From the IMG/VR virus record IMGVR_UViG_3300031885_000059, positions 1-36,528 of that record: a DNA stretch of 36,528 nt; one strand, given 5' to 3'. Below the pieces are notes generated by a model. It was not told the origin of the DNA. It ran no database searches and worked only from the letters and a program-made list of their open reading frames with translations. The translations under genes and the position numbers were made by a program. Positions 3,469-24,762 of this stretch are shown here, piece after piece. Every line of letters starts with the position of its first letter. Position 1 is the stretch's first letter. This DNA is from a virus.

Positions 3469-5049
3469 TCACGCCGCTTCCTCCTCCAGGTCGCCGCCCA
3501 GCCAGGGCGACTCGGGCCGGTCGGCCTCGTCGTACTCGACCTCTAGCGAATGGACGCAATTGTGCACTATAATGCCCCCAGCTAGATAAGCACCTGAGAC
3601 CGTTTGGAGGTCATACACGTGAGCCACGTGGTGTTGCGGAAGCGTCTCAGCTATGACGACGTGGTCAAGGATTACCTCGCCGGCCAGTCCATGTGCGAGG
3701 TCGGAAGCCGCTACGGTATCTGCGCCAGTAGCGTCGGCAACATCCTGCGTCGACGTGGAATCACGGCTCGCCCCGCCGTTAGCGAGCGCACTTGGTCGGG
3801 CAGACGGGGCACGCGAGATAAGTTGTCCACCCTCCTGGCCCGCGCCAGGACCCGCCAGACAAGGCTGGTCGGCTCCAGCAAGCTGGAGGACAGATTCGCC
3901 ACCCTGCTCGATACACTGGGAGCCACCTACACGAGGCAGTTGGCCGTCTCCCGCTACAATCTCGATTTCGCCTTCAGCGAAGCCCCCGTCGCCGTGGAAA
4001 TCCGCGGCGGAAGCTATGACTTTGCGCGGCATTCGCAGTTGGCTGAGCGCACGAAATATCTCGTCGATGAGGGCTGGACCATTATCAGTCTCCATGCCCC
4101 CGGCATCCGCGTGCTCGCGCAGGCTGCGGAATACTGTGTCGCCTTGGCGAACAGACTTCGCTGGCAGCCACCCGCGGCCGGTCAACACCGGATGATTTGG
4201 GGTCAGCACCAACTCTGCGCCGCTCTCCGTGAGGAGTTTCCGGACCGGCCCTGCGTATGCCATCCGCGATGCCGCCAGGACGGCACCCAGTGGCACCACG
4301 GGCGTACCAGAGATCACGCAGTTGACGTGGAGAGGAACTGACCAGGTGTAGCCCTCCTCCAGCGGCACCCAGCCCTCGGCGACAAGGTCCTCGCAGTTGG
4401 GGCAGATCGCGCTCTGCGGGTCCACCCTGGCCCGCCCCGTGAGCTGGTTACGGTAGATGAAGTCCACCTGGGCGTAGTTGCGCGCCGTCCCCAGCTCAGT
4501 GACGCTAATGCTCGGCAGGTGCTTCTGCCAGCGCGCGGCGTCCCAGTCACTGAGCCTTTTGAGGTAGGTCCCCCGATTTGCCGTCGGCACGTCCTCGGCG
4601 ATGCGGGCGATCTGCCGGCGCATCTCGGCGTTGTAGGTGTCACTGATGCTGCTGGCCGCGAACTGGGCCCGATCGCGCAGGTCGCCGAGCACCATCGGGT
4701 CCGTCACCTTGAGGCTGCCAGCGAGGTCATAGCCCGCCACCCGCGCCTCCTGGAGGATGGCCGCCCCGAAGTCGCTCGTTGCCTGCCCGAACAGCTCGTC
4801 GGCCAGGAGGTCGGTGTACCTGGGACCAACGCTGAAGGCGTCGTACACCATCTCCTGGATGGCCGTGAGCTGCTGCTTGGACAGCGGGGCAGGGTAGGCG
4901 AGGGACAGGATCAGGCTCTTCTGCTTGCAGTACTCCTCGGTTGCATCCTTGAGGGCTGCGCAGTAGGCCGATGGATCGTCCTTGTCTTGGTTCGCCGCTA
5001 CACAATCGGCGAAGGAAGCGAATTCGCAGGAGCTTCCGAAAGGGGCCAT
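3469..5049 (-). CDS. MuF-like head morphogenesis protein with intein
   Basis: 526-residue precursor starting at MAPFGSS, whose ATG overlaps the upstream stop (TGATG). The extein (272 residues after splicing) has an N-terminal ASFADCVAANQDK segment and a C-terminal MuF/SPP1 gp7-like region ending in a zinc-type pattern: CPNCEDL, then SVPLHVN joined to CVHSLEVEY, equivalent to the HPNCRH motif of phage Mu F proteins. Residues 244-497 are an intein inserted exactly at that motif (the N|C junctions). The protein is a minor head protein near the portal, needed for assembly. Confidence 0.88.
   Translation of the reverse strand: MAPFGSSCEFASFADCVAANQDKDDPSAYCAALKDATEEYCKQKSLILSLAYPAPLSKQQLTAIQEMVYDAFSVGPRYTDLLADELFGQATSDFGAAILQEARVAGYDLAGSLKVTDPMVLGDLRDRAQFAASSISDTYNAEMRRQIARIAEDVPTANRGTYLKRLSDWDAARWQKHLPSISVTELGTARNYAQVDFIYRNQLTGRARVDPQSAICPNCEDLVAEGWVPLEEGYTWSVPLHVNCVISGTPVVPLGAVLAASRMAYAGPVRKLLTESGAELVLTPNHPVLTGRGWLPAKSVRQGDTVFRSLREHADAGGMETDNGPALIDEIFRALSQLRMPRKVIASAADFHGDGGFAEGEIEIVAGDGQLPRVGGSQCIEQGGESVLQLAGADQPCLAGPGAGQEGGQLISRAPSARPSALANGGASRDSTSTQDVADATGADTVAASDLAHGLAGEVILDHVVIAETLPQHHVAHVYDLQTVSGAYLAGGIIVHNCVHSLEVEYDEADRPESPWLGGDLEEEAA
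3559..4320 (-). other. Intein (Hint domain) in the head protein
   Basis: 254 residues. It begins CVISGTPV, has block B as TPNHPVLTGRGWLPA, and ends VYDLQTVSGAYLAGGIIVHN followed by Cys (+1), so all splicing residues are present: Cys1, TxxH, His-Asn and Cys+1. The roughly 130-residue linker has no LAGLIDADG or HNH motif. It contains DFHGDG...EIEIVAGDG and then an Ala/Ser/Gly-rich stretch. On the opposite strand the same DNA encodes a nuclease (3619-4341). Self-splicing is expected from the motifs. Confidence 0.9.
3568..3573 (+). promoter_or_regulatory. Candidate -10 box for the antisense nuclease
   Basis: A perfect TATAAT on the plus strand, 45 nt before the nuclease GTG. No convincing -35 is found 16-18 nt upstream, and the bases also encode the intein C-terminus (GIIVHN) on the other strand, so this is tentative. 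Confidence 0.35.
3619..4341 (+). CDS. HTH + DUF559/Vsr-like homing-type endonuclease, antisense to the intein
   Basis: 240 residues from GTG 3619, which has GGAGG at 3606-3610, 8 nt upstream; an in-frame TTG at 3604 precedes it. Residues about 10-50 are a helix-turn-helix (YDDVVKDYLAG, then SVGNILRRRGI). Residues about 90-160 match the DUF559/Vsr-like nuclease fold: KLEDRFATLL, YNLDFAF (Asp), VAVEIRGG (Glu) and ERTKYLVDEGW. The last 60 residues lie opposite intein block B and may be incidental. The ORF sits almost entirely inside the intein on the opposite strand, which suggests the homing nuclease of that intein. Confidence 0.8.
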   Translation: MSHVVLRKRLSYDDVVKDYLAGQSMCEVGSRYGICASSVGNILRRRGITARPAVSERTWSGRRGTRDKLSTLLARARTRQTRLVGSSKLEDRFATLLDTLGATYTRQLAVSRYNLDFAFSEAPVAVEIRGGSYDFARHSQLAERTKYLVDEGWTIISLHAPGIRVLAQAAEYCVALANRLRWQPPAAGQHRMIWGQHQLCAALREEFPDRPCVCHPRCRQDGTQWHHGRTRDHAVDVERN

Positions 5050-5249
5050 CACAGTTGCCTGCCGCAGTACCGGCAACTCGTCGGCCCATTCTGGTACCGC
5101 ATCTGCCCTCGCCCGCAGTGGCTGCACTTGACCGACCGGCCATAGCTTCCGCCCAGCGGCGACGCCGCCTCGGGCCCACAAGGTGCCACCGGCGGCTTGG
5201 TTCGGAGCGCCGTCCGGGAGGCTCTTCCCTCAACCCAGCGCTTGCCCAA
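5049..5249 (-). CDS. Small zinc-ribbon protein
   Basis: 66 residues. The C-terminal half holds CSHCGRG...CRYCGRQL, a CxxC-n-CxxC zinc ribbon. The stop overlaps the head-protein start (TGATG). The N-terminal 35 residues are of low complexity, so the true start may lie downstream of 5249. Function is unknown. Confidence 0.65.
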   Translation of the reverse strand: MGKRWVEGRASRTALRTKPPVAPCGPEAASPLGGSYGRSVKCSHCGRGQMRYQNGPTSCRYCGRQL

Positions 5250-5439
5250 CTTCGACCTCCTGCCGGGCGCACTCGGCCTCTATGTCAGCCGCTCCACCTT
5301 GAGCACCTACTACCACTCGGCTCATAGGGCCCAGGGGCCGAGCTGGCCGGCGATAGCCGCATTGGAGGCAGAAGTCCTCGTTCTCCACGTTGTCCAGGCC
5401 CATCTGTCCATTCAGGCAGCGCGGGCAAGGCATGTACAT
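5230..5439 (-). CDS. Small zinc-ribbon protein
   Basis: 69 residues with CPRCLNG...CLQCGYRRP, a two-CxxC zinc ribbon, near the N-terminus. The ATG overlaps the portal stop (TGATG). It lies between portal and MuF-like genes next to a second zinc-ribbon gene, so the two may act together in head or connector assembly. That is inference from position only. Confidence 0.75.
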   Translation of the reverse strand: MYMPCPRCLNGQMGLDNVENEDFCLQCGYRRPARPLGPMSRVVVGAQGGAADIEAECARQEVEVGQALG

Positions 5440-7458: not shown

Positions 7459-9057
7459 CTATACCGCCTTTATGCGCTGGCCGCGGCTCTCCAGCCGGGA
7501 GGCGGCAAGTACCCGGAGGCAGTCGGCGCCGTCGTCAGGGTTACTCCGCCCCGTGTTCTCTGCCGGCTCCTCGGCATAGACACCCGAGGCGACCTGCCTG
7601 CGGTGATACTGGCCCATGTCCCGCCGCAGCCACCGGCAGCGAGGATGCACCAGCAGGCCCCGGTGCCCCTGGGCGTCCCGAATGAGGCGCCGGACCTCCT
7701 TGACTCCATCTACCACGCCGGTCTTCGTGGGCGCCTTCACGGGCACGCCGAGCTGCCGAATGTAGGACTGGAGCTGCTTGTCCGTCACCCCGGCGTAACA
7801 GACTTGCGGCTTCCGGTACGCTCTCACCTGCCCCGTGAGCTCCGCCTTGCGTCCCTCCTCCCAGGTCGTCTCCTGCCAGAACCAGATGCCGGTCTCGCGG
7901 TTGGCCGCGTCCAGCTCCCGCTTCTCGGAGAGCCAGCGCATGACCTCCTCATAGAGCGTCATGTTGGTGTAGAGCTCGTTCACCACATGAACGTCACCGT
8001 TTGGCATCTCCTGGCAGGCCAGGACGACGAGGGCGTCGGGGAGATATCCGTCATCGACTGCCCATGACACCGGCAACTCAGGGTTGTACTCCGCCTCCTC
8101 CGTCACGTTGGAGTCGGGGTCGCCAGGCGTGTCCAGCCAGTTCTCGTAGACCAGCCCCTTGTGCGACGCGCTGCGACAGAGGCTCTGGACGATCCAGGTT
8201 TCCTCATCTGACTGGAGTCGCCGGTTGATGGCGTCCGACTTCTTGAAGTGGCCGGTCGCGTTCCTCACCCGCCCCTGGCAGTCCTCCCACAGCAGGCAGT
8301 CAGGCGGCTTCAGCTCCACACCGCGCTTGACGCGCTCGGCATCCTCGCAGGTCGCGCAAGGCTCCATGACATCGAACAAACAGCCCGTGAAAACCTTGAT
8401 GCCCCGGCTCTCCGCCTCTGTCAGCAGCCGGTTCATGGGGCCGAAGGACGTCACCTCGGCCGATGCGTAGACGGTCTGGGATGGGTAGTCTCCCGTCGAC
8501 ATGGGCATCCCGACGAACTGCTGGTAGACATCCCAGGCCATGAGGTCGAACTCGTCCGCCACTGCCATGTTGGGGTGTGGGCCCGACGTGGCCCCGACAG
8601 TTCCCGGTAGCACTTCCAAACGGCTCCCGTTCTTCCAGCGGGTCTCGCTCATGATCGGCTCCTGCATGAGGGCCCGGCGGAAGTGGGGGTCGCGGAAGTA
8701 GCCCTTCACATAGCCGTAGTTCAGGTTGGCCTGGCGCTGAATGGCGCCTACGTGCGAGGTCTGAAAGGCATCGTGGTAGTGATGGTTCAGCAGGTGGAGT
8801 ATGGACAAGTCCCGGGTCTTGCCACTGCCCCTCGCCCCCTGGAGAGCGGCCGCCAACACCCGGCGGAAGTACACGTCGGCCATGAACTGGAAGGGCGCCA
8901 CGTGCTCGGGGCACACCGCCCGCCAGGCGATGTGGAAGCCCAGGATGTACCATATCCAGTACCAGAGCTGCTCGTCGTTCTTGGGGCCGAGCTCCTTGAG
9001 GCGGCGCAGGGACACGACCGCCCGCTCGCGCTGGTACTGCTCAAGAGCGGTGGTCAT
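7459..9057 (-). CDS. terL: Terminase large subunit
   Basis: 532 residues. Walker A is GARGSGKT at residues 74-81 and Walker B MAVADEFD at 164-171, as in packaging ATPases. The C-terminal half has the nuclease-like WAVDDGYLPDALVVLA strand (first acidic residues) and PDDGADCLR near the end (last acidic residue). Its ATG overlaps the upstream stop (ATGA 9054-9057). The enzyme powers genome packaging through the portal and cuts concatemers. It is separated from the small subunit by five small or accessory genes, two of them on other strands or very short. Confidence 0.92.
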   Translation of the reverse strand: MTTALEQYQRERAVVSLRRLKELGPKNDEQLWYWIWYILGFHIAWRAVCPEHVAPFQFMADVYFRRVLAAALQGARGSGKTRDLSILHLLNHHYHDAFQTSHVGAIQRQANLNYGYVKGYFRDPHFRRALMQEPIMSETRWKNGSRLEVLPGTVGATSGPHPNMAVADEFDLMAWDVYQQFVGMPMSTGDYPSQTVYASAEVTSFGPMNRLLTEAESRGIKVFTGCLFDVMEPCATCEDAERVKRGVELKPPDCLLWEDCQGRVRNATGHFKKSDAINRRLQSDEETWIVQSLCRSASHKGLVYENWLDTPGDPDSNVTEEAEYNPELPVSWAVDDGYLPDALVVLACQEMPNGDVHVVNELYTNMTLYEEVMRWLSEKRELDAANRETGIWFWQETTWEEGRKAELTGQVRAYRKPQVCYAGVTDKQLQSYIRQLGVPVKAPTKTGVVDGVKEVRRLIRDAQGHRGLLVHPRCRWLRRDMGQYHRRQVASGVYAEEPAENTGRSNPDDGADCLRVLAASRLESRGQRIKAV

Positions 9058-11365: not shown

Positions 11366-12174
11366 GGGATGGTCCCCCTTTGTTTGGAGCGCCGGGATGG
11401 AATTGCACCACCCTCTCCCGCATGGATAGCGGGCACATCGCTGTCTATGCTTCCAGCGCCCAGGGCTTCCTCGATCATGTCCAGCAACAGCATCATCGCC
11501 GTCGCGCCATTGCGGACGTCGCGCTCTGCCATCTTCTCGGCTAGCGCGTTCAGGAGCCGGTCGTGCTCGGACCACCGCGCCAGGATGGTCGGAGTCTTGA
11601 TGTCGGCCGCGATCTTGTCGAGCATGGAACGCAGCCGCTCCACCTCCTCCGGCAGAAAGGCGAACGAGATGACGTGGTAGTCCAGGGGGATGTCGGTTAG
11701 GGCCTGGGGTTCGATAGAGGCCAGTTGCAGAAGAATCGCGTCGTCGAGGCCGGAGTATTCCTTGAGGACCACGTCGTCGATCTCGTTGAACAGCTCCCGC
11801 AGGATGACCGAGTCGTCTTCTCCCACGATGGCGTTGTGCGAGAGCTGCTTCGCCACCTCTTCGCCCCTGGTCATGTCATCGGTGATGACCAGCACAGCTA
11901 GGCGCTGGATGCCAGCCTGCTTAGCTGCCATGACGCGATGATTCCCTGAGATGACGCGGAGCTTGCCGTCCGGGAGTAGCCGGCAGAGTGGGACGCTTTC
12001 GACCCGGCCGTCATGCTTGAGATTGTCCACCAGGGCGCCGAAGGTGGCGGCGGACATCATGCGCGCGTTCTTCTCGAGCAGTTGCAGCTCGTCTATGCTG
12101 GCGTATCTGAGCGTCAGACCGTCCGGCAGGCGAAGACTCAGTTCGTCGATGTCCCGTGATTTTGTAGCCACCAC
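11362..12174 (-). CDS. ParB/Srx-fold nuclease-domain protein
   Basis: 270 residues from GTG 12174, which has GGAGGGG 7 nt upstream and overlaps the preceding gene by 37 nt. The N-terminal domain shows LLEKNARMMSAATFGALVDNL and the signature SGNHRVMAAKQAG (residues 76-88), then QLSHNAIVGEDD. This phage ParB-type family is commonly found next to terminase. The C-terminal half is helical. The likely role is in DNA binding, nicking or modification linked to packaging. It is the third ParB-type protein in the window and differs from the two partition-like ones. Confidence 0.85.
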   Translation of the reverse strand: MVATKSRDIDELSLRLPDGLTLRYASIDELQLLEKNARMMSAATFGALVDNLKHDGRVESVPLCRLLPDGKLRVISGNHRVMAAKQAGIQRLAVLVITDDMTRGEEVAKQLSHNAIVGEDDSVILRELFNEIDDVVLKEYSGLDDAILLQLASIEPQALTDIPLDYHVISFAFLPEEVERLRSMLDKIAADIKTPTILARWSEHDRLLNALAEKMAERDVRNGATAMMLLLDMIEEALGAGSIDSDVPAIHAGEGGAIPSRRSKQRGTIP

Positions 12175-13454
12175 TCTAGCCCCTCCTGGAGCGTCCATCG
12201 TCCCAGCTCGCCGACATAGTTTAGGTGCCCCTCCTTGCGAGAGTGCAGTTTGTAGATGCCGCGATACTTCATGCTAACAGGCTTCTCCGTGAAAGCCGTA
12301 GTCCCGATGGTCTTCGCCCTGGCGACCATCCCGCCATCCGATAGCGAGAGCCTAAGCTCCCGGGACAGACTCGCGGCCAGGACGAGCTTGCCCAGGCGTC
12401 GATAGCGATGGTGGGGCACGGCCACGTCACACATCATGTAGAGGTCGCAGAAGCCGGCGCCTGCAGAGCTACGGGAGAAGCCCAGGACCCCGACGAGGTA
12501 CTCGTCCATCATGACGGCGAACGTGAATTGTGGCTGCGCCGGGATGATGTTCTTGCCGAGCAGGCAGTCGCGAAGCCAGCGGAAGGCGGGCGCGTCCAGC
12601 TTCATCAGCCGAAGTTTGCAGGAGGGCGAGATCTCGGCGTCCTGGGGCAGTCTCTTCAGGTGGGGGTCACGGGTCTTCTCTCGTGTCCTGGCAAGGCGAG
12701 AGTGGCCCAGGCTCCCATAGCAGTAGACGGGGCGCTTTCGCAGAGATGGCACAGCGACGCCGACGAGGTGGCCGCGGAGGTCCTCGATAAGCCGATCGTT
12801 AAACAGCAGCCAGTGGGGTCGGATGGTGAGAATCGCTATGAGCTGGGCCATGCTTGACTCGTCGAACATGCGATAGGAGGGCCGGTCTCGCCAGTCGAAC
12901 ACCTTGTCCATGTTCTTGTAAAGCTGCTCGTATCCGCCCTTGTAGGTTGGCGGGGCGGTCATAATTCCGGCGCCGGCGGGAGCCGCGGAGAGGTGATCGA
13001 TCACGTCGCCGGCGTAGTATGAGGCGGCCTTCAGGCCGCCGAGGGCCTTCTCCGCCTTTGCCTTTGTCCCCTCGTGCAGATCATTGAAATGAACCCGGTA
13101 TGCCTCCACGCGGCGCGTCCAATATTCCGAGTCCTTGCCGTAGCCCCGCAGCATCGACGTACAAAGCAGCAGGGTGGCGACGGTATCGAGCGGAGTCTTC
13201 AGGTAGGACCCCAGCCAAGCATACTCCTGGTCCTTGATGGCAAGGCCCAGGGCAGCCCCCGTTAGGTAGGCGCCGATAGCGGAGCTGTAGAGGCTGACGT
13301 CGCTGGAGTGGCAGTTGACGGGGACAGATGCGAGGGCGCGTTCGAGGCCGAATTTGCCGGAGCAGCCCACATAGAGGTCGGAGACGGGCCAGTCTCGGAC
13401 GGCCTCAAGGGCCATCGACTTGAGAGGCTGGGGCAGGCCGCCGATGAAGGGCAT
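12138..13454 (-). CDS. Methyltransferase-like + Mom-like acyltransferase fusion
   Basis: 438 residues from MPFIGG (13454). The N-terminal domain has LYVGCSGKFGLERAL (27-41, like AdoMet motif I), HSSDVSLYS (49-57, acidic motif II) and APPTYKGGYEQLY (167-179, in place of the DPPY catalytic motif). It resembles phage proteins annotated as putative antirestriction adenine methyltransferases. The C-terminal domain (about 305-430) looks GNAT/Mom-like: DLYMMCDVAVP, RYRRLGKLVLAASLSREL, and KPVSMKYRGIYKLHSRKEG. Mu Mom modifies adenine in phage DNA to resist restriction. The gene lies between DUF488 and ParB-type genes, so a DNA-modification role is likely but inferred. Confidence 0.7.
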   Translation of the reverse strand: MPFIGGLPQPLKSMALEAVRDWPVSDLYVGCSGKFGLERALASVPVNCHSSDVSLYSSAIGAYLTGAALGLAIKDQEYAWLGSYLKTPLDTVATLLLCTSMLRGYGKDSEYWTRRVEAYRVHFNDLHEGTKAKAEKALGGLKAASYYAGDVIDHLSAAPAGAGIMTAPPTYKGGYEQLYKNMDKVFDWRDRPSYRMFDESSMAQLIAILTIRPHWLLFNDRLIEDLRGHLVGVAVPSLRKRPVYCYGSLGHSRLARTREKTRDPHLKRLPQDAEISPSCKLRLMKLDAPAFRWLRDCLLGKNIIPAQPQFTFAVMMDEYLVGVLGFSRSSAGAGFCDLYMMCDVAVPHHRYRRLGKLVLAASLSRELRLSLSDGGMVARAKTIGTTAFTEKPVSMKYRGIYKLHSRKEGHLNYVGELGRWTLQEGLEWWLQNHGTSTN

Positions 13455-13464
13455 TTCAGCGCTA

Positions 13465-13812
13465 TCATAAGGCCGGTGTCCACAAGCTCGGATTCTGCTC
13501 CGGCACCGATGTGCCGAGCTCCCGCTCCAGCCATTCCGCGACGAGGCGGCGGTGGCAGAACTCCCCGGGCTTCTCCCAGCAGAGAAGGATGGCATCCTCG
13601 CCGACTTCCTCTAGGATGGCCTTGGCGTCCAGACGCTCCAGCTGGAGCATGAACTTCTCGCGGAAGACGGCCTCGTCGGTCTCTTTCACCAGCGCCCAGG
13701 TCGCCGGTGCCAGAGGCAAGCACCTGCGACCCTTGAACCCTCTCGGTACCCCCCTGCTAATAGCGATGGCGTTGGGGTCCGTTCCTGAGAGTTTGAAGTT
13801 TGAGGTCTTCAT
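13465..13812 (-). CDS. DUF488-family protein
   Basis: 115 residues. ILLCWEKPGEFCHRRLVAEWLE (about 82-103) is the DUF488 signature. It begins at a TAATG overlap with the ParB stop. DUF488 has no settled biochemical role; in phages it recurs near DNA-modification genes. Its place between ParB and the Mom-like fusion suggests the same pathway. Confidence 0.8.
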   Translation of the reverse strand: MKTSNFKLSGTDPNAIAISRGVPRGFKGRRCLPLAPATWALVKETDEAVFREKFMLQLERLDAKAILEEVGEDAILLCWEKPGEFCHRRLVAEWLERELGTSVPEQNPSLWTPAL

Positions 13813-22974: not shown

Positions 22975-24762
22975 TCAGCTCAATCCTTCTGGCCACAGAA
23001 TGTCCGCCGCCTTCACCATCCCTCGTCCTGGGTACTCGATGGCGCCCAGGGTTCGCAGGCGGCCCAGGTTGTTAAAGTAGCCGCCGCTCGTGGGCGATAC
23101 GCCCAACTGGACGGCCAGATCGTCTTTCTGCACGGCCTCGGGGTACATCTCGATCAAGGCTCTGAGGATTGCGCTCTGCGCGCGTGGCAGGATTCGACAC
23201 CAGGACTCGTGGAGCTCGGCCACGCCGGTGATCGGCTCCACAGGCCCGGCCGCCTCACGACCGCCGGGGGTCAGGGAGACGTAGCTGGGCTGGGGGTAGT
23301 CGACCAGGCCAAGGCTGCGGAGCCGGCCGAGGTTATTGAAGTAGCCGCCGCTGGTCGGGGACGCGCAGGCGTGCACCGCCACCATGTTCTTGTGGACCTG
23401 GCTGATGCCGAGCGGCTCGAAGGCAGCCAGGACATCCAGGATGCGCTGCTGTGGCCGCGAGAGGGCATCCTCCTGATTCGTCGCAGGGAACGGAGCGGGT
23501 GCCGGCGACCCGGCCACCGATGGCTGCCGTGCCAGCGCTGCGGGCTTAGGGGGAGGGGGAGGAGGCGGCTGAGGTGTCGGAGGGGGAGCCTTCTCATTCC
23601 CTTTGACGACCCGCAACGGCGGTCCGTCCAACGCCCGGCGCCATGCCTCCGACGCCGCGCGGAAGGCCTCCAGGACAGCATCACCGGCCGAACGCAGGGC
23701 TTGAAAGCGACGTTCCCAGCCCGATACGCTGGACCGCAACAAAGCCAGCTCGCCCTCGTGACCGCACGAAGCGGGCTTCTGGCGCTGCAACCTGGCGATC
23801 TCCCGTTCGAGTTCGGATATCTGCTTCCTCAGGAGCCGCGGGTCTTCTCGCTGAGCCCGCTCCACCGCGCCCGCCAGTCGGGTTCGGAGCGCCTCCAGGT
23901 CTACAGGCGCCATCTGCTTGGGCGCGCGCCGGACCTCGCCGACCTTGGGAGTGGCCGACGAGTCGAAGGTCTTTCGACTCCTCACCCGTACTCGCTCGAA
24001 CACCTCCAGCCAGCCAGGCGACCAGAACCAGCCAGTCCCAATGGGCAAGGACGGCAGCGAGGTCATCATCACCTCGCGCTCTTCGGGGGTGCCATGCACC
24101 TTGACCCAGGCATCAACCGCGTCCCGGTCCTGGGGCGCGATGGTCCTCAGCGCCACCAGTACTTCGGCCTGCGTCAGGACATCCTTGTTTAGGACGGCAG
24201 AGCGCTGCGAAATCAGTGTGACGCCGATGCCCCTGGCCCTGCCGCGACGCACCAGGTCCTCGACCGCGCCGAGCATCCGCTCCTGGCCGTGCATAGGGCG
24301 CTGGGCCGCAAAGGCGTCGGCTTCGTCTAGGAACAGATGCAGGGGTTCTCTGTTGCGGTGATAGAGGCGCTCGCAGAAGTCGGTCATGAAGCGCGTCTGC
24401 TCGCCCTTCCTGAACAGCGACAGGTCCAGCACAAGGGACAGGCGCTCGTCCACGACCAGATCGGCCACCAGCTCGCCGCTGGCCAACTCCAGGGGAAGGT
24501 CGCCGTGACTCCCGCCGAGCACGATGATGGGCAAGCCCGGCCCCCGGCCATCAGCAGCGGCGCGAAGTCCCCACCAAACTCCGATTGGATCCGCAACTAC
24601 TACGTGGAGACCAGCGCCCAACATCTCTTCGGCCATGACGCTGGCGGCGTAGGTTTTACCGACCCCCCTCTTGGCGAGGATAGCGAAGGTCTGCGTGACC
24701 GCCTCCGTCGGCAAGGAGAAGGCGGCACCAGCCGCCGTAGTGCCGATCAGCAGACCAGACAC
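22975..24762 (-). CDS. HerA/FtsK-like ATPase with duplicated winged helix
   Basis: 595 residues from GTG 24762. Walker A AKRGVGKTY at 30-38, Walker B LHLFLDEAD at 141-149 and ISQRSAVLNKDVLTQAEVLVALRT after it place it in the HerA/DUF87 pumping-ATPase group. A coiled coil (about 280-335) and a poly-proline linker (about 390-410) lead to two winged-helix repeats, each with SPTSGGYFNNLGRLR and a following YP. It may translocate or resect DNA with a nuclease; no NurA is seen here, though the Mre11 gene is 8 kb upstream. It overlaps its upstream neighbour by 16 nt. Confidence 0.88.
   Translation of the reverse strand: MSGLLIGTTAAGAAFSLPTEAVTQTFAILAKRGVGKTYAASVMAEEMLGAGLHVVVADPIGVWWGLRAAADGRGPGLPIIVLGGSHGDLPLELASGELVADLVVDERLSLVLDLSLFRKGEQTRFMTDFCERLYHRNREPLHLFLDEADAFAAQRPMHGQERMLGAVEDLVRRGRARGIGVTLISQRSAVLNKDVLTQAEVLVALRTIAPQDRDAVDAWVKVHGTPEEREVMMTSLPSLPIGTGWFWSPGWLEVFERVRVRSRKTFDSSATPKVGEVRRAPKQMAPVDLEALRTRLAGAVERAQREDPRLLRKQISELEREIARLQRQKPASCGHEGELALLRSSVSGWERRFQALRSAGDAVLEAFRAASEAWRRALDGPPLRVVKGNEKAPPPTPQPPPPPPPKPAALARQPSVAGSPAPAPFPATNQEDALSRPQQRILDVLAAFEPLGISQVHKNMVAVHACASPTSGGYFNNLGRLRSLGLVDYPQPSYVSLTPGGREAAGPVEPITGVAELHESWCRILPRAQSAILRALIEMYPEAVQKDDLAVQLGVSPTSGGYFNNLGRLRTLGAIEYPGRGMVKAADILWPEGLS

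Follow-up and report, generated by a model that had tools for sequence, protein, structure and literature searches.

Background

In the fractured genes that Dassa et al. reportedly described in 2009, a gene for a Vsr-like endonuclease separates the two halves of a split intein. The endonuclease of an intein has been portrayed as an in-frame domain that is nested at a single conserved site of insertion (PMC6801210), and the EDxHD (Vsr-like) enzyme I-Bth0305I has been reviewed among the enzymes of group I introns (PMC3943268), its structure, 3r3p, having been deposited as that of a "mobile intron protein". Homing endonuclease genes that lie in antisense are known as well, from the group I introns of nuclear rDNA (PMC9548176). 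In the open-access literature, antisense homing genes were found in group I introns and none inside a continuous intein, the absence of a precedent remaining unproven.

The locus described here lies in a window (the whole stretch of viral DNA that was analysed) of 36,528 nucleotides with a GC content of 65%, in which a MuF-like head gene on the minus strand contains an intein and the plus strand of the same DNA carries a gene for a nuclease of homing type (Table 1). In our judgement, the locus is very probably a mobile intein in which the homing endonuclease, instead of being an in-frame domain, has a gene of its own that is overprinted codon by codon on the antisense strand of the linker, with the expression and cleavage activity of the nuclease and the splicing of the intein all being inferred.

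Table 1. Features of the MuF locus in the window
Feature	Position	Strand	Evidence or remark
MuF-like minor head protein gene (host gene, with intein)	3469..5049	-	continuous ORF and phrog_15127
Intein, 254 aa, Cys1-Asn254, then Cys+1	3559..4320	-	motifs, PF14890, Hint fold
Intein block A (CVISGTPV)	4297..4320	-	C1 invariant in 29 inteins
Intein block B (LTPNHPVLTGRGWL)	4165..4206	-	motif; H43 invariant in 29 inteins
Intein block F (HVYDLQTV)	3598..3621	-	antisense carries nuclease SD and start codon
Intein block G (AGGIIVHN)	3559..3582	-	antisense carries TATAAT
Antisense homing-type nuclease gene, 240 aa, GTG start	3619..4341	+	DUF559 match; antisense conservation; purifying selection in relatives
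Helix-turn-helix domain of nuclease, residues 8-48	3640..3762	+	pLDDT >90 over most; HTH structural matches
Vsr/EDxHD-like nuclease domain, residues 85-182	3871..4164	+	3r3p, Vsr, DUF559 structures; E90, D116, E127 invariant
Nuclease C-tail over intein blocks B to A and 21 nt of N-extein	4165..4341	+	both frames constrained in relatives
Shine-Dalgarno GGAGG of nuclease	3606..3610	+	same position in relatives
TATAAT, candidate -10 element of nuclease promoter	3568..3573	+	-51 from start in window and many relatives

The Intein and Its Host Gene

The minus-strand frame of the MuF gene is unbroken from 5181 to 3469, right through the intein, with an ATG at 5049 and a stop at 3469, and its product matches the head protein family phrog_15127 (E = 6.5e-31). 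The original prediction, which had been made from the sequence alone, had placed in this gene a 254-residue intein with all of its splicing residues, and these were all present (C1, T40-N42-H43 forming the TxxH of block B, H253-N254 and Cys+1, within the motifs TPNHPV, HVYDLQ and VHN), with C1, H43 and N254 invariant across 29 inteins. Of the range quoted for the observation as a whole, 3559-4341, the end 4341 is that of the nuclease stop codon and lies in the extein; the intein is bounded at 4320. Pfam matched the minus frame to Intein_splicing (PF14890) at E = 3.4e-7 with 30.6 bits, under the 35.8-bit gathering score. The AlphaFold2 model of the minus product had a Hint fold, confident over residues 1-70 and 210-254, for which the best Foldseek matches were the inteins 2imz, 1am2 and 2lqm, and a linker that was disordered over residues 126-203 and of moderate confidence over 80-110. 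As judged from motifs and predicted fold, the MuF gene holds a complete Hint-type intein, and its splicing activity is inferred from these same features.

Several other genes of the window deserve mention. The interval between portal and MuF has two tiny zinc-ribbon-like ORFs with CxxC pairs (5049-5249 and 5230-5439, both minus), the first of which runs into the start of MuF (overlap TGATG) and is conserved among relatives that have no intein. A protein resembling HerA/DUF87-type ATPases (22975-24762, minus) also matches a terminase large-subunit family, and the large ORF at the place expected of a terminase (7459-9057) had no PHROG or Pfam family match. At 12138-13595 (minus) an adenine-methylase-like domain (DAM-like-phage1) is fused to a phage GNAT-like domain.

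A Nuclease Gene on the Opposite Strand

The plus strand had been predicted to encode a helix-turn-helix (HTH) and a DUF559/Vsr-like nuclease with its own GGAGG ribosome-binding site and GTG start, the nuclease core falling between intein blocks F and B, and in each of these respects the prediction was borne out. The frame runs from the GTG to a TGA at 4339-4341, the stop being situated in the extein, 21 nt beyond the intein end. The product is coded on the opposite strand and is not translated within the intein polypeptide. Separate family searches of the two frames had been proposed as a check, and along with the intein match to the minus frame, the plus frame gave a match to DUF559 (E = 5e-6) that was over the gathering score. 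In AlphaFold2, the plus product had a confident HTH and a confident alpha/beta Vsr-like domain, followed by a C-tail that was mostly disordered past residue 205 (these structure predictions were made on proteins from contig loci).

The best PDB match of a profile of the nuclease family was the catalytic domain of I-Bth0305I, 3r3p (hmmsearch E = 2.3e-7); with a profile built from a larger family, 3r3p was matched at 2.5e-6, near the DUF559 structure 3hrl and below an HTH match, and HTH families were matched in many nuclease members. Foldseek also placed 3r3p first for the nuclease fold (E = 5e-4, probability 1.00), and comparisons with 3hrl, Vsr and 3r3p all gave Z scores of ~10, that of 3r3p being 9.9 over 95 residues. 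Among 43 nucleases, E90, D116 and E127 were invariant and R144 and G152 nearly so, and no invariant HxD pair was identified in these 43 in the absence of a residue-level superposition on 3r3p. The three invariant residues alone do not establish the HxD half of the EDxHD signature.

Codon Register and Constraint on the Two Frames

The codons of the plus frame are the exact reverse complements of those of the minus frame, so that positions 1 and 3 of a plus codon pair with positions 3 and 1, respectively, of the minus codon and the middle base belongs to both. In this phase just TTA, CTA and TCA on one strand give a stop on the other, and in the nuclease frames of 64 non-redundant embedded loci, where ~452 of these codons were expected based on the codon usage of the host genes, 1 was observed. 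The freestanding nuclease of Acinetobacter phage P1068 (see below) had 13 versus 20.5 expected. The cost of the arrangement is that TTA, CTA and TCA are barred from the nuclease.

The strand that selection follows could be read from the codon positions (minus 1/2/3) at which ten Guernseyvirinae differ. Differences per codon were.22/.14/.52 for the N-extein and, for blocks F-G,.01/.01/.21, both ordinary minus coding;.31/.06/.13 for the linker, which is the pattern of plus coding; and.14/.06/.20 for blocks A-B, which the nuclease tail also covers and where the pattern is that of both frames. A comparison of dN/dS in the two frames had been put forward as a second check, and in-register estimates of this type in the linkers of three phage groups gave an omega_plus of.20/.39/.40 versus an omega_minus of.45/.70/.57, the relation being reversed in blocks F-G (the Gordonia group was left outside these estimates and compared by identity only). 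Constraint was measured in relatives only, and not on the window's own nuclease, because the latter is without a close relative bearing the intein; when viral contigs were searched using only the nuclease of the window, no relative emerged. The prediction would have been refuted by linkers conserved only in the minus frame or by plus-strand stops in close relatives, and the outcome was the opposite, the plus frame staying open in relatives and the linker being conserved mainly in it.

A minus-strand linker motif, DFHGDG..GEIEIV, is conserved across the inteins, and together with the omega_minus values below 1 (.45-.70) and the moderate model confidence of residues 80-110 it could be taken to mean that the linker is a functional domain of the intein and that both strands are equally functional throughout. 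However, the motif lies opposite the catalytic YNLDFA..VAVEI of the nuclease, just as the nuclease C-terminal YRVIRG lies opposite TPNHPI of block B (block B of the window has TPNHPV, and the nuclease motif also occurs as HRMIWG), and its variation in the ten Guernseyvirinae is at the plus wobble position (.118/.022/.022 at minus positions 1/2/3). With linker residues 126-203 disordered and omega_plus below omega_minus in all three groups, a functional minus-strand domain seems unlikely to us. Because the pattern of substitutions switches strand at the linker, DFHGDG..GEIEIV is better read as being largely the shadow of the nuclease catalytic core, and the AlphaFold2 models, with confident nuclease domains and a disordered linker, fit such a reading. 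The original claim of dual coding holds in that both genes are real, and requires narrowing in its extent: from the substitution patterns, strict dual coding is confined to the nuclease C-tail where it overlaps intein blocks A-B and is constrained in both frames, and in the remainder of the linker the minus frame would for the most part evolve as the nuclease's shadow, remaining open and under modest extra constraint.

Putative Expression Signals inside the Splicing Motifs

Block F opens with the His of HVY[ND]L, and the nuclease start codon lies across from it: an ATG or GTG was found there in 49 of the 58 loci with a recognised block F, with a Shine-Dalgarno sequence of the GAGG/GGAG/AGGT/AAGG type just upstream, opposite the Leu-Asp/Asn codons, in 44 of the 58. 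Further upstream, a perfect TATAAT lies opposite the Ile-Ile of block G in 25 of 52 loci, mostly 51 nt before the start, versus 4.8 expected based on synonymous redraws with host codon usage. This excess is reflected in the isoleucine codons themselves, the second Ile being ATA in 21 of 34 cases (6.9 expected) and the first being ATT in 24 of 31 (9.4 expected), and the window keeps its TATAAT though its MuF exteins use no ATA. Wobble sites at the -10, Shine-Dalgarno and start were 80-100% conserved in 15 related loci, versus ~50% in the flank further upstream. A promoter for the nuclease in the antisense of block G is likely, and is not proven because a simple promoter scan of the window detected no two-box promoter and no evident -35 element, several groups of loci have no TATAAT, and the loci are not independent.

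Recurrence in Other Phages

Searches of phage genomes by tblastn with either product matched the same places on opposite strands, in Salmonella and Escherichia Guernseyvirinae, in phages of Pantoea, Pseudomonas, Gordonia, Klebsiella, Edwardsiella, Haemophilus and Vibrio and in a Helicobacter prophage, and also in plasmid records of Promineifilum (Chloroflexota) and Streptomyces. Both frames were open and in the same register in 17 of the first 18 loci, including those of 36-43% GC, and in all the antisense pair recurs in ~64 non-redundant phage and prophage loci whose GC content ranges from 33 to 70%. That the pairing is more than chance was supported by 94 further viral loci that were retrieved by nuclease sequences alone and had the same arrangement with almost no exceptions, and by a scan of bacterial genomes that produced 3 loci, all with the antisense arrangement; a profile made from 17 diverse nucleases was too divergent for contig scans. 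From these searches, the same mirror-image arrangement occurs in no fewer than 60 diverse lineages of phages and prophages, which are related by descent, so that the counts of loci are not independent.

The insertion was at the same MuF site in every locus checked, and the interrupted gene matched Phage_Mu_F of Pfam in 10 of 10 diverse hosts (1-2 of them under the gathering score, one at E = 0.009) and head proteins in PHROGs. In the window and its intact relatives the minus ORF continues through the intein and is not split into two ORFs.

Acinetobacter phage P1068 (OQ689089, L014) has a freestanding homologue of the nuclease at 1300-2199, immediately downstream of the MuF gene and antisense to it. 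This MuF gene is uninterrupted, with its insertion site, MCKC, intact, and the C-terminal motif of the nuclease no longer mirrors block B of the intein. A second locus of the P1068 type (L082) likewise has a freestanding nuclease adjoining an uninterrupted MuF. The freestanding form may be a precursor, i.e., a nuclease residing by its target gene that later merged with an intein, or it may be an escapee, and the data do not decide between these.

The nuclease gene is unannotated in most of the annotated records examined. In LC507823 (L019), a "hypothetical protein" deposited as ORF43 (1694-2095, plus) is in the intein region on the nuclease strand and in a frame that differs from that of the nuclease (CDS phase 1694, match phase 1501); with the minus-strand ORF42 it exemplifies the trouble that gene callers have at this locus.

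Apparent Footprints of Mobility

Intein-free MuF genes with 78-87% DNA identity to that of the window occur in three relatives of its phage (L020, L021 and L022), in which the coding sequence is seamless at HVN^C or its equivalent, and among jerseyviruses with ~92-96% identical exteins the intein is present in some and absent in others. The intein and nuclease of Klebsiella phages RCIP0054 (L012) and KpTDp1 (L121) are 98.8% identical next to N-exteins of 71-94% identity, which fall to 71-83% over the adjoining 300 nt, making a recent transfer possible. Two Gordonia phages with N-exteins of 76% identity have nucleases of 33%, and between Vivi2 (L007) and ViaConlectus (L010) N-exteins of ~76-82% identity adjoin inteins that differ strongly at the same site (nucleases ~32% identical), which suggests that one site has been occupied repeatedly; Vivi2 and Angelicage have exteins of 98-99% identity and inteins of 78%. 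The reverse also occurs, with nucleases of 51-68% identity in exteins that are merely 22-33% identical. Empty alleles and this incongruence between exteins and nucleases fit the traces that an element would leave as it moves among alleles of a single site.

These footprints bear on what the nuclease is for. It could be a real antisense gene with a job other than homing (e.g., the exclusion of co-infecting phages or DNA restriction) for which the intein is a safe haven, since domains like those of Vsr and DUF559 are found outside homing elements too, 3hrl and Vsr fit the fold equally well, and a freestanding member exists. We give this little credence in view of the single insertion site in MuF, the intein-free alleles, the horizontal footprints and a nearest characterised relative that is a homing enzyme, yet the two jobs are compatible.

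Three relatives show signs of decay, one with a stop in the nuclease and an open intein (L060), one with a stop close to the nuclease end (L050) and one with both frames broken (L025), and decayed nucleases with open inteins are what a homing cycle predicts. From such relatives, and from its GTG start and lack of a clear -35, the window nuclease might itself be supposed to be a decayed or silent relic of a formerly mobile element, but the ORF is full-length with E90, D116 and E127 intact, its Shine-Dalgarno and TATAAT are intact and the fold is confident, making a relic quite improbable. There is next to no chance that the plus ORF is a functionless shadow left open by high GC and the in-register phase, even with 65% GC in the window and only three codons to avoid, since the frame is open in AT-rich relatives (33-43% GC), has nuclease family and fold matches, is the one that linker substitutions follow and has 1 stop-making codon where 452 were expected, and this reading was rejected on the codon-position pattern, omega estimates and antisense-stop counts.

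A Proposed Mechanism

The mobile intein with an overprinted antisense endonuclease rests on a gene pair, a codon register, constraint, sequence signals, empty sites and incongruence that were observed directly, and it would operate as follows. The promoter element opposite block G and the ribosome-binding site and start opposite block F, signals that are seen in the DNA, would have the nuclease expressed opposite the head operon, possibly at a time apart from it. The HTH would bind, and the Vsr/EDxHD-like domain cut, an intein-free MuF allele at the sequence coding for the conserved HxN^C site, with cutting inferred because of the family of the nuclease, the single insertion site and the existence of empty alleles. 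Repair of the break off an intein-bearing genome would copy the intein and nuclease together, as is inferred from footprints that fit such copying. MuF itself would be translated through the linker, which is for the most part the complement of the nuclease code and presumably a passenger during splicing of the precursor, and the Hint domain, for which there are motifs and a fold, would then splice out. More broadly, we lean towards this being a widespread class of mobile intein at one MuF site, with an antisense-overprinted homing endonuclease and splicing motifs that double as its expression signals (block G as the -10, block F as the Shine-Dalgarno and start).

In at least 60 lineages, then, the slot of the in-frame intein endonuclease would be occupied from the opposite strand, a natural and repeated instance of antisense overprinting, and antisense transcription, if it occurs, would give the nuclease a timing of expression distinct from that of the head operon. 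With the freestanding homologue by the intact MuF gene of P1068 available as a control or a possible intermediate, direct tests of how a nuclease comes to join an intein become feasible. There is also a family of candidate homing enzymes targeting a conserved phage head gene, and a warning that conserved motifs in intein linkers can be shadows of an opposite-strand gene of the kind that gene callers miss.

Comparison with Known Systems

The fractured genes attributed to Dassa et al. (2009) are similar in being phage loci that join intein parts and a Vsr-like homing nuclease, and differ in that their intein is said to be split by the nuclease gene, whereas in MuF the intein is continuous and the nuclease overlaps it in antisense. 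The inteins of Escherichia phage Snoke (MK931441) and of Jerseyvirus (PMC8425127) are of the same family and at the same MuF site; in the Snoke record the intein is annotated and there is no CDS for the antisense nuclease. I-Bth0305I is the best profile and top fold match and shares a DNA-binding region plus a Vsr-like catalytic domain, but it is intron-linked, whereas the MuF nuclease gene is antisense within an intein and its HxD pair is not established. In the rDNA group I introns (PMC9548176) a homing gene is likewise opposite both its host gene and its splicing element; however, that element is RNA and the insert need not stay an open frame, whereas in the MuF intein translation has to pass through both strands and codon use is therefore constrained. 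Lastly, the canonical mobile inteins (PI-SceI, PI-PfuI; PMC6801210) have the same Hint domain, the same placement of the endonuclease code in the linker between blocks B and F, and a conserved site in the host gene, but their endonuclease is of the LAGLIDADG type and in frame, whereas that of the MuF intein is Vsr-like and a separate antisense gene, never a part of the intein polypeptide.
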